From a virus, in IMG/VR virus record IMGVR_UViG_3300048131_000244, positions 1-53,734 of that record: a stretch of 53,734 nt of DNA, one strand, 5' to 3'. Shown in pieces: positions 24,566 through 30,434 of the stretch. Below the pieces are notes generated by a model that searched no databases, had not been told where the DNA came from, and saw nothing but the letters and a program-made list of their open reading frames with translations. The position numbers were made by a program, and so were the translations under genes. Within the stretch, counting starts at the first letter, position 1. Every line of letters starts with the position of its first letter.

Positions 24566-25642
24566 ATGAAAGTTCTATTTTTAGCACCACATTTAAGCAC
24601 AGGAGGTATGCCCGCGTTTTTACTAAAACGTATTGAGGCATTACTTGGCTATACTGACATAGAAGTATTTGTTGCTGAATGGAGATGTTATAGTATGAGT
24701 TATGTTGTACAACGACAACAAATCGAAAACTTAGTAGGAAATAATTTTATTAGTTTTGATGGTAAATCTGAATTGCAAAAAGATATTATTGGCTATTGTT
24801 ACAAAAATAAAATTGATTTAATTCATATAGAAGAAATACCTGAAGGGTTTGATACATTTAACCCATTTCCAAAAGAAATTCAACAAGAATTATACGATAA
24901 AAAACACCCCTGGAAAATAGTTGAAACATGTCATAATATTTATTTTAATCCAGAAGAAAAGAAAATATATAACCCAGATGGATATGCATTTGTTACCCCT
25001 CATCATTTAAATAGTACCTTTAAAAACCAACCTGGTAAAAAATCATTAATTCCATTTCCTATTGATCCTACTATACAACATTCATCTACCCAAAAAGAAA
25101 TATTAAAAGAAGGAGGTTGGTTAACTAAAGGTGAGTTTCATATAATTAATATAGGATTATGGACACCAGGTAAAAACCAAAAATATGCCATTGATATAGC
25201 TAAGGGGTTATGGGAAAAATACAGATGGACTTACATATTCCATTTTTTAGGAAATCAGGCTCCTAATTTTAAAGATTATTGGGAACCCCTAATGAAAGAC
25301 TTACCCCCAAATGTTTTTATTTTGGGAGAAAGAAATGATGTAGCTAAATACTTTAAAATGGCGGATGCTATGTTATTTACTTCTAACTTTGAATGTAATC
25401 CTATAGTACTAAAAGAAGCCATTTCACATAATACTAGAATAATGGCTTATAATTTACCCCATTATGGAGATGAATATACACCATTTATAGAACCCTTAAC
25501 AGGTAACGTTGAGGATGATAAATTTGCTTTAACTCATTTAATTCATTCCCCAATTAAATATAAAATAGGAGATTATAACAACAGTGTTAAGGAATTTGCT
25601 AATAAACATGTTCAATTTTATAAATCTATAATTAATGAGTAA
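24566..25642 (+). CDS. GT-B glycosyltransferase (GT4-like)
   Basis: This 358-residue protein has the two Rossmann halves of a GT-B enzyme. The N-terminal half opens MKVLFLAPHLSTGGMPAFL, with the Gly-Gly loop that meets the acceptor. The C-terminal half has NIGLWTPGKNQKYAIDIAKG and ADAMLFTSNFECNPIVLKEA, the family-4 donor-sugar motif with the E-x7-E style pair. It should move a sugar from a nucleotide-sugar donor. It is the first gene behind promoter P3 and overlaps the next glycosyltransferase by eight bases. The target may be a virion or host envelope protein. Confidence 0.8.
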   Translation: MKVLFLAPHLSTGGMPAFLLKRIEALLGYTDIEVFVAEWRCYSMSYVVQRQQIENLVGNNFISFDGKSELQKDIIGYCYKNKIDLIHIEEIPEGFDTFNPFPKEIQQELYDKKHPWKIVETCHNIYFNPEEKKIYNPDGYAFVTPHHLNSTFKNQPGKKSLIPFPIDPTIQHSSTQKEILKEGGWLTKGEFHIINIGLWTPGKNQKYAIDIAKGLWEKYRWTYIFHFLGNQAPNFKDYWEPLMKDLPPNVFILGERNDVAKYFKMADAMLFTSNFECNPIVLKEAISHNTRIMAYNLPHYGDEYTPFIEPLTGNVEDDKFALTHLIHSPIKYKIGDYNNSVKEFANKHVQFYKSIINE

Positions 25643-26723
25643 TAAATTATTGATAAGTTTTGATATTTTTCCTAAAGTAGAAGTTAAAGGAACTATTGAT
25701 GCCGAATATTTAGTTGAATTTATAGATGGGGATACAAATAAAGTTATTCATAAATCTACTATTAGAAATAATATGTGGACTCAAGCAAATAAAAAATGGC
25801 ATATAAACTGGATTATTAAAGTAAATGGCAAAGTAGAGCATATTTTTAATTTAAAAGATAAAGAAGTTAAAATCACTATAGATTCTAAATCGGTAGGAGA
25901 TACATTAGCATGGGCACCACAAATAATAGAATTTGCTAAAAAGTATAAATGTAAAATAACAGCATCTACATTTCATAATGAATGGTTTAAAAACAACCCC
26001 AAGTACAAAAATATTAAATTTATAGAACCAGGTAAACCAGGAGATTTTTATGCTCATTATATGTTAGGGTGGTATAAAACAAAAGATAAATGGGATGAAG
26101 GAATGCATCATCGTAATATGCCTAATACAATCCCACTTATTCAAACTGCTACTGATATGTTAGGTTTACCTTATAAAGAAATAAACCATGGAATCGATTT
26201 CACCCCAGATAAACGACCTATAAAAGAAAAATATATTTGCATTGGCCCCCGTTCAACTGCTGGCTTAAAAGAATGGCCACACCATTATTGGGGGATTTTA
26301 GCTAAAAATCTAACTGAATCAGGATATAAAGTAGTTAACGTGTCATATGAAGGTTTTAGTCAACCTAATATAATAAATAAAGAAAAATTAAACTGGAAAG
26401 ATACCTATAATTATCTTTATCATGCAGATTTATTTATAGGTTTAGGTTCTGGTTTATCTTGGTTTAATTGGGCGATGGATAAACACACTTTAATGATAAA
26501 TAATTTTATCCCCTATGGTTATGAAATGACTCATAACTTAACCAAAATAGAAGATTATTCAGTATGTAATAATTGTTGGGTGGATAAAAGGTTTGTATTT
26601 GATAAAGGAAATTGGGATTGGTGTCCTAAACACCAAAATACAATGTCTCAACACATTTGCCATAAAGCAATAAAACCTGAAACTGTTTTAAAGAAAATTC
26701 AATATCTATTAAAATACAAATAA
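25635..26723 (+). CDS. TibC-like protein O-heptosyltransferase
   Basis: This 362-residue protein matches the autotransporter O-heptosyltransferase family (TibC/Aah type). A beta-rich N-terminal 90 residues precede SVGDTLAWAPQIIEFAKKYK, the family hallmark. The second half opens with CIGPRSTAGLKEWPHHYW, followed by DLFIGLGSGLSWFNWAMDKH. Near the end, CNNCW, WCPKH and HICHK form the cysteine set that binds iron in TibC. Such enzymes glycosylate Ser residues on bacterial surface proteins. A phage copy inside the tail cluster suggests modification of a virion or host surface protein. Confidence 0.75.
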   Translation: MSNKLLISFDIFPKVEVKGTIDAEYLVEFIDGDTNKVIHKSTIRNNMWTQANKKWHINWIIKVNGKVEHIFNLKDKEVKITIDSKSVGDTLAWAPQIIEFAKKYKCKITASTFHNEWFKNNPKYKNIKFIEPGKPGDFYAHYMLGWYKTKDKWDEGMHHRNMPNTIPLIQTATDMLGLPYKEINHGIDFTPDKRPIKEKYICIGPRSTAGLKEWPHHYWGILAKNLTESGYKVVNVSYEGFSQPNIINKEKLNWKDTYNYLYHADLFIGLGSGLSWFNWAMDKHTLMINNFIPYGYEMTHNLTKIEDYSVCNNCWVDKRFVFDKGNWDWCPKHQNTMSQHICHKAIKPETVLKKIQYLLKYK

Positions 26724-29396: not shown

Positions 29397-30125
29397 ATGG
29401 CGGAATTTAACCTCCCAACTGAAATAGTAGAATTACCTTCTCAAGGAAAACTTTATGCCCCTGATAGTCCTTTATCTAAAGGTACTATTGAAATGAAGTA
29501 TATGACTGCTAAGGAAGAAGATATTCTTACTAATCAATCTTATATTAGAGATGGTGTTGTTTTAGATAAACTATTACAATCACTAATTGTTACCAAATTT
29601 AATTACAGTGATTTATTAATTGGTGACAAAAATGCAATTATGGTTGCTGCTCGTATTTTAGGATATGGTAAAGATTATAAATTTACATATGCTGGAGAAG
29701 AACAAGTAGTTGATTTATCTCAAATTGATAATTTACCTTTAAATGAGGAAGTAGAAAATTCAACATCTAATAATTTTTCATTTACTTTACCTCAATCAAA
29801 AAATACAGTTACCTTTAAGTTATTAACTCATGGTGATGAGAAAAAAATAGAACAAGAATTAAAGGGATTAGAAAAATTAAATAAAACAAATTCCCCAATA
29901 GTAACTACTAGATTAAAATATCAAATAACTTCGGTTAATGGAGAGGAGGAAAAACCTAAAATTCGTGAATTTGTAGATAACTACCTTCTAGCTCAAGATT
30001 CCAGAGCATTAAGAGAAAGAATTAAGCAAATAGGCCCCGATGTAGACCTAACTTTTTTTCCCGAAGGGAGCAATAGAAAAGTCGATATCCCAATTGGGCT
30101 TAGCTTTTTTTGGCCTGACATCTAA
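29397..30125 (+). CDS. gp26-like baseplate/tail-assembly protein (upstream part of probable frameshift pair)
   Basis: This 242-residue protein contains VELPSQGKLYAPDSPLSKG and IEMKYMTAKEEDILTNQSYI, then VVLDKLLQSLIV. I know this set from T4-like marine phages, where it is annotated as gp26 baseplate hub. Its place between tail tube and tape-measure-like gene is also that of a tail assembly chaperone. The last 70 bases overlap an ATG-less second frame, with two seven-T runs (30053-30059 and 30105-30111). A +1 (or -2) slip at the second run would extend the protein by about 98 residues. Confidence 0.75.
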   Translation: MAEFNLPTEIVELPSQGKLYAPDSPLSKGTIEMKYMTAKEEDILTNQSYIRDGVVLDKLLQSLIVTKFNYSDLLIGDKNAIMVAARILGYGKDYKFTYAGEEQVVDLSQIDNLPLNEEVENSTSNNFSFTLPQSKNTVTFKLLTHGDEKKIEQELKGLEKLNKTNSPIVTTRLKYQITSVNGEEEKPKIREFVDNYLLAQDSRALRERIKQIGPDVDLTFFPEGSNRKVDIPIGLSFFWPDI

Positions 30126-30408
30126 AATAGCACCACAATTTAGAGCAAATGTATTCAAAGAAATACATGAAATAGTATTCCACGGGCAAGGTGGATATGA
30201 TTGGAGTACTGTTTATAATATGCCTTTATGGTTAAGGAAATTTACTTTCAATGAGATCAAAAATTACCATATAGATCAAAACGAAAAAATAAAAAACCAA
30301 ACTAAAGACCCCAATCAAAAATCCCTTATCAACCCAGATGGTACTGTAAATACCCCTGAATTTGTAAAAGCATCAGAACCATATAAGGGCAAAACAAGCT
30401 ATAAATAA
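30094..30408 (+). CDS. Downstream part of probable frameshift product (gp26-adjacent)
   Basis: This frame encodes FGLTSKIAPQFRANVFKEI, then VFHGQGGYDWSTVYNMPLWL and RKFTFNEIKNYH. That block is conserved in small proteins encoded next to gp26 in related phages. The frame is open from 30052, yet has no ATG before codon 43 (30220), inside the conserved block; only a TTG at 30094 could start it. The seven-T run 30105-30111 aligns codons TTT-TTT in both frames, so ribosome slippage from the gp26-like gene is the simplest reading. A TTG start or a base error are the alternatives. Confidence 0.6.
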   Translation: MGLAFFGLTSKIAPQFRANVFKEIHEIVFHGQGGYDWSTVYNMPLWLRKFTFNEIKNYHIDQNEKIKNQTKDPNQKSLINPDGTVNTPEFVKASEPYKGKTSYK

Positions 30409-30420: not shown

Positions 30421-30434
30421 CATATACTTTGATT

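Follow-up and report, generated by a model that had tools for sequence, protein, structure and literature searches.

Organization of the locus

The window analyzed here is the whole of a virus contig record of 53,734 bases, to which all coordinates refer. On its plus strand, two overlapping reading frames lie between a tail tube gene and a probable tape measure gene (Table 1), which is where a preliminary description of this DNA had placed them. The second frame, ORF2, is in the +1 frame relative to ORF1 and is read as open from 30052 to a TAA at 30406-30408, with a preceding TAA at 30049-30051. Its first ATG in the window is at 30220, within the block that is conserved among relatives, and a TTG at 30094 is its sole other start-like codon. 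Just nine T runs on the plus strand of the window are seven bases or longer, and two of them, at 30053-30059 and 30105-30111, fall in the overlap between ORF1 and ORF2, the second in the context AGC-TTT-TTT-TGG-CCT; TTTTTTTGGC is present once in the window.

Table 1. Features of the putative tail assembly chaperone locus and its neighbours
Feature	Start	End	Strand	Description
Tail tube protein gene	28804	29292	+	Upstream neighbour; PHROG_4542 tail tube, E=4.7e-22
ORF1	29397	30125	+	242 aa, C-terminus IGLSFFWPDI followed by the stop; short product (TAC-N / gpG-like), putative gp26-like tail assembly chaperone
Upstream run ACT-TTT-TTT-CCC	30053	30062	+	Probable auxiliary +1 slip site; subclade only
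Main slip site TTT-TTT-TGG	30105	30113	+	Predicted slip from TTT 30108-30110; next codon GGC 30112-30114
ORF2 after main slip	30112	30408	+	Predicted C-terminal extension (TAC-C / T-like), 98 aa, begins GLTSKIAPQFRANVFKEIHEIVFHGQGGYDWSTVYNMPLWLRKFTF
Predicted frameshift product	29397	30408	+	TAC-NC / gpGT-like, 336 aa
Probable tape measure gene	30435	32459	+	Downstream neighbour; position as annotated tape measure gene in immuto and SP-15

The order of tail tube gene, chaperone gene and tape measure position is common to the window, Flavobacterium phage immuto and Bacillus phage SP-15. The tabulated start of the probable tape measure gene is its first ATG (the ORF as listed begins with a TTG at 30429), and no family match to its product was found in PHROG and Pfam profile searches. 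A sheath-like gene lies farther upstream of the tail tube gene, and two adjoining ORFs immediately upstream of it, at 24566-26723, look glycosyltransferase-like by eye.

Family identity and structure of the products

The gp26-like identity proposed earlier for ORF1 is upheld by a match to PHROG_150 'baseplate hub' (E=4.6e-8). The match to PF12322 (E=3.5e-4, 20.8 bits) falls under the 24.5 cut-off, which is passed by LIS04 (85.6) and GXN1 (89.1). The ORF1 and ORF2 parts were folded separately. An AlphaFold2 model of ORF1 (pLDDT 91) matches the SP-15 baseplate hub subunit in the Foldseek viral library (TM 0.83) along with T4-like baseplate hub proteins, while its top match in the PDB, the HK97 tail assembly chaperone 2ob9, is not significant (E=1.1, probability 0.51). 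ORF2 is predicted, with moderate confidence, to be helical.

A chain of profile alignments leads from the predicted fusion of ORF1 and ORF2 to phage T4. The window-type +1 fusions align over their full length with their Firmicute-phage counterparts (hhalign E=5e-26), which in turn align with the cyanophage-type -1 fusions (E=4e-12), and the latter with T4 gp51 (E=2e-16), each E-value being pairwise; compared directly, the profiles of window-type fusions and T4 gp51 match weakly (E=0.09). By way of these intermediates, ORF1 being gp26-like and gp51 amounting to a gp26-like protein plus a C-terminal extension, the fused product would carry an extension of the gp51 type. The coverage of PHROG_150, which has 282 positions, leads to the same assignment of ORF1 as the counterpart of gp26 and the fusion as that of gp51, since T4 gp26 ends at position 235 and gp51 reaches 280, and the +1-fused products of Mel-JY01 and LR756508 reach positions 274 and 273, respectively.

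Several other arrangements were seen at this junction. A -1 poly-T site occupies the same place in Melnitz, XacN1, LR756511, Syn1, S-H9-1, phiN3, Yut2 and Aeh1 (L102, L103, L105-L109, L112), with an additional ATG overlapping the gp26 stop in phiN3 and Yut2. At L111/L110, ORF2 of Vibrio phage D531 has an ATG that overlaps the ORF1 stop (TAATG), and ORF2 of Salmonella phage S115 is in the -1 frame with no obvious slippery heptamer. The cyanophage 'gp51' looks like a -1 extension of gp26. Sullivan et al. 2010 described cyanophage gp51 as lacking ~200 N-terminal residues (PMC3037559), a short form that would follow from its being fused to gp26 by a -1 shift.

Conservation of the proposed slip site among relatives

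The core set for comparison consists of 89 non-redundant relatives found by homology to ORF1 or ORF2, with ORF1 search patterns that exclude the slip site. The nearest records are Flavobacterium phage immuto, Microcystis phage Mel-JY01 and uncultivated contigs. Relatives also occur on genome contigs from, among others, Winogradskyella, Flavobacteriales and Sphingobacteriales bins, so some members of the group, at least, probably infect Bacteroidota; the host of record of Mel-JY01 is a cyanobacterium.

The preliminary description had proposed that ribosomes slip at the second T run, and the comparison identifies this run as the essential site and confirms its conservation. Its codons read TTT-TTT-TGG in 83 of the 89 relatives, TTT-CTT-TGG in five (the isolated phage immuto among them) and TTT-TTT-TAC in one, and the Pro codon that follows is CCT in all 89. 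Elsewhere TTT accounts for 84% of Phe codons, so that TTT-TTT is kept far above codon usage, and a naive joint log10 P for the site comes to about -17, a value that is too extreme because the relatives are not independent of one another. The constancy of CCT and of the GAC codon is accounted for by double coding, as the same bases specify a conserved Leu-Thr in the +1 frame. Double coding does not account for that of TTT-TTT, which is therefore taken as a signature of slippage. In the +1 frame the protein becomes conserved at FFGLT, the residues before it being variable, and stays so through a block of the form FFGLT...QIHEIVFHGxGGYDWxTVYNMPIWLR; between ORF2 and its close relatives, dN is far under dS. 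A CTT-AGC just upstream, which had been pointed out earlier as resembling a +1-prone sequence, is not kept as such (GTT, ATT, CTC, GTA, TTA and others are found there), and was rejected as a Ty1-like site. Its apparent conservation, or third-base bias, results from avoidance of +1-frame stops.

More distant queries added ~82 non-redundant loci, of which 75 have their longer open extension in the +1 frame by an automatic rule, with L152 and L181 joining them upon inspection. Variants among the more distant loci include CTT-TTT-TGG (L164, L172, L176), TTT-TTT-TAC (L183, L185) and TTT-TTT-TTC (L215). A search by motif only, independent of homology, with the pattern TTTTTTTGGCCTGACNYC gave at least 120 matches; among the matches listed, all 79 new loci map to where an ORF1 relative ends, and 76 of these 79 have ORF2 in the +1 frame (E<1e-3), the other three comprising two with a diverged ORF2 and one that leaves the contig end. 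The slip motif is intact in L237 and L278, though their ORF2 has diverged past profile detection; ORF2 of L278 reads GYQDILTMPTAERRF, close to its T4 gp51 counterpart YSLNSISKMIPAERGF. In the distant relatives LIS04, SP-15, GXN1 and LR756508, ORF2 is likewise in the +1 frame, joined across a UUU codon whose neighboring bases differ, and the sites of the Firmicute phages, UUU-UUU-AGU (LIS04), UUU-UUU-CAC (SP-15), UUU-UUU-CGU (L214) and UUC-UUU-CGU (GXN1), all have ORF2 in +1. Taken together, these sequence comparisons are strong support for programmed +1 frameshifting at the second T run, and hundreds of relatives appear to make short and long versions of the chaperone by the same one-base skip.

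Homopolymer runs are prone to errors, and a single gene could in principle have been split by a mistake in sequencing or assembly at a sequence of this type. This almost certainly did not happen here: the same junction recurs in isolated phages as well as in hundreds of independent contigs obtained from various samples, which excludes such an error, and ORF1 retains a short conserved WPD tail with its stop.

The beginning of the second frame

In many relatives a +1-frame stop lies 3-9 codons upstream of the site, leaving no start codon for ORF2. The interval is shortest in L063, L068, L073 and L079, where the stop is three codons ahead of the shifted GGC; it is equally close in 19 of 164 further loci that do not have the first T run, and 67 of these 164 have no ATG, GTG or TTG between the +1 stop and the site. 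The next ATG of ORF2 in relatives is usually at +96 or +108, inside the conserved block. The earlier remark that ORF2 is without a start of its own thus extends to many relatives, in which the whole stretch from the +1 stop to the conserved block is free of start codons.

An ATG-started ORF2 in relatives, which the preliminary description had named as evidence against a frameshift, was found in L202 and L208 only, and these are two relatives that have lost the T run (TTC-TTG-TAT and TTC-CTT-TGG, respectively). In both, ORF2 is in the -1 frame, has acquired a new stretch at its N-terminus and starts at an ATG directly past the ORF1 stop. A start has appeared in the very relatives in which the site has disappeared, and for this reason the two exceptions strengthen the case for frameshifting; as their ORF2 seems to be made separately, they also indicate that the fusion is not required in every lineage.

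These two relatives give some substance to the view that ORF2 is a separate gene everywhere, translated from the TTG at 30094 or from another internal start. A TTG is found 18 nt ahead of the shifted codon in most close relatives, and the Mel-JY01 record has ORF2 annotated from such a TTG. This TTG is nevertheless a by-product of ATT-GG, which encodes Ile-Gly, and it is absent from many relatives, including the many loci that have no start codon at all up to the conserved block; moreover, a start at TTG would need neither TTT-TTT nor a +1 frame held open back to the first run. We consider internal initiation very unlikely as the general explanation.

Direction and kind of the proposed slip

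Because ORF2 is in the +1 frame of ORF1, the shift must be either +1 or -2, as had been noted from the window, and of these two the comparison strongly favors the former. A -2 slip at the same run, giving a product with ...SFFFGLT... and in the window the junction peptide VDIPIGLSFFFGLTSK, has in its favor that within a T7 run UUU is able to re-pair two bases back. In the five loci with TTT-CTT-TGG, including immuto, a -2 slip would set tRNA-Leu on UUC and re-pairing fails, whereas after +1 the tRNAs can re-pair from UUU to UUC, or from CUU to UUU. The sites TTC-TTT-CGT and TTT-TTT-CGT of Firmicute phages also fit +1 better, and a -2 slip is accordingly regarded as highly improbable. Slippage of the RNA polymerase in the T run, yielding mRNAs of mixed length, might be suspected from the homopolymer itself (T7, or T8 in L014 and L215), but the same arrangement is kept with TTTCTTT, with T6 runs, and at a Firmicute-phage site that has only TTCTTT, and we give this possibility hardly any credence.

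The preferred +1 slip by ribosomes does not conform to the better known classes of site. The canonical -1 pattern X_XXY_YYZ does not apply because the second frame is +1, and in most relatives the -1 frame meets a stop after a few codons. The site also departs from the prfB type, which has a stop codon in the A site and a Shine-Dalgarno-like sequence 3 nt upstream, in that the A site holds UGG and the bases immediately upstream vary. A hungry codon in the A site is not supported as the driving force, for in the window the 0-frame UGG (11.8 per 1000) is not rarer than the shifted GGC (3.0 per 1000). No downstream stimulatory RNA structure is conserved among the relatives, and no phage-encoded tRNAs were found in the window.

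A second T run upstream

An in-frame TTT-TTT-C occurs ~50 nt upstream of the main site in 60 of the 89 relatives, which form 21 clusters at 75% identity. From this first run to the main site the +1 frame is open in all 60, as compared to 13.5 expected under synonymous-codon shuffling, and the -1 frame over the same interval is open in two, against 4.5 expected. Five further loci with the first run gave the same result (+1 open in 5/5, 1.5 expected), while in 164 loci without it the excess of open frames in +1 is not above that in -1. The Pro codon that follows the first run is CCC in 56 of 73 cases, CCC being ~13% of Pro codons. These statistics on related sequences are most simply read to mean that, in this subclade, the upstream run is probably a second, auxiliary +1 slip site.

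Relatives without the first run (L034, L041, L042, L046, L057, L058, L094 and others) have a stretch rich in GAG-GAG or GGG-GAG, Shine-Dalgarno-like in composition and with GAG favored over GAA, ~26 nt upstream of the slip site, too distant for known Shine-Dalgarno effects.

Comparison with known systems

The arrangement resembles that of lambda gpG/gpGT, in which a single gene between tail tube and tape measure gives a short and an extended product through a late slip (PMC5009743). The shifts in lambda and its relatives are -1 (PMC5009743, PMC6316719), whereas the shift here would be +1, in a protein of the gp26/gp51 family. In T4 itself gp26 and gp51 are two separate genes, in contrast to the one gene with a +1 site proposed here. 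The chaperone genes of T4-like phages were identified by Vladimirov, Gautam and Davidson 2022, Virology 566:9 (as cited in PMC10885494 and PMC12846349); the title of that paper proposes a mechanism other than frameshifting, and it is the source given in PMC12846349 for poly-T -1 sites in these genes. Cyanophages, Vandenendeviridae and SPP1 share with the window a poly-T slip site late in the frame of the short chaperone (PMC12846349, PMC6316719), but have ORF2 in the -1 frame. In the gp26-type phages among them, the -1 poly-T site falls on the same Phe-Phe codons as the site here.

Among +1 sites, the closest likenesses are in the behavior of the P-site tRNA. At the bacterial prfB site, CUU_UGA, it slips from CUU to the overlapping codon. 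In influenza A PA-X, at UCC_UUU_CGU (PMC3498833), it likewise slips +1 to an overlapping codon, and the sites of GXN1 and L214 are exactly UUU-CGU. The site here differs from both in having UGG in the A site, and it lacks a stop codon and, at the spacing seen in prfB, a Shine-Dalgarno signal. The archaeal myovirus HSTV-2 is described as very likely having a +1 shift at the tail chaperone position (PMC5009743), though its host is from an unrelated domain.

The chaperone pair is in itself not new, since the gp26/gp51 chaperones and -1 poly-T sites in relatives have already been published. No report of a +1 direction in the gp26/gp51 family, of a UUU-UUU-UGG site or of the tandem arrangement was found in the literature searched, some of it represented by titles and by citing papers; within that scope, these three features are new.

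Proposed mechanism and significance

It is very likely, from the comparisons above, that ORF1 and ORF2 constitute one gene for a tail assembly chaperone pair made by a +1 slip. The signature of frameshifting chaperones, a common N-terminus and a conserved slip late in the first frame, is present at the level of sequence. Most ribosomes would stop at 30123 and release the short product. Some would reach UUU-UUU-UGG with Phe-tRNA in the P site, and during decoding of UGG this tRNA, the presumed slipping species, would move one base forward onto the overlapping UUU, at a rate that presumably leaves the short form in excess; reading would resume at GGC-CUG to give ...IGLSFF-GLTSK... and the 336-aa product. 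The junction peptide predicted for the window is VDIPIGLSFFGLTSK for a +1 slip at the main site and QIGPDVDLTFFPK for one at the first run, the second UUU-UUU-C 52 nt upstream, which probably adds to the shift in the window's subclade. For immuto, which has Flavobacterium sp. LMO8 as its host of record, the predicted junction peptide ends in VSFFGLTPEYR with a slip at UUU or in VSFLGLTPEYR with one at CUU. By analogy with lambda gpG/gpGT, these proteins would act as tail assembly chaperones and be missing from virions; the short form would coat the tape measure protein, and the extension at the C-terminus would recruit the tail tube protein.

On balance, we favor a broader reading, in which a large and mostly uncultivated group of gp26-type myophages, the few assignable hosts of which are mainly Bacteroidota, uses an undescribed +1 site, UUU-UUU-UGG, and a subclade has a tandem pair of +1 sites, selection preserving an open frame from one to the other. 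One family would then express its chaperones in four ways (a +1 shift, a -1 shift, a separate ATG-started second gene, or two full genes as in T4), with +1 and -1 shifts at the same Phe-Phe codons.

An immediate consequence concerns annotation, as isolated phages, immuto and SP-15 among them, have the second half of the gene listed as a small hypothetical gene of its own; immuto gp233 (L002:7318-7428), annotated as a separate hypothetical protein, corresponds to the last part of the frameshift extension. Compared with -1 shifts, programmed +1 shifts are much less common and not as well understood, and a near-invariant site across hundreds of phages, together with its natural variants and losses, offers a ready series for dissecting bacterial +1 sites, perhaps in hosts where Shine-Dalgarno pairing has only a minor role. 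For the phages themselves, it would appear that within one chaperone family the direction of the shift can vary by lineage, while its place in the protein stays constant.
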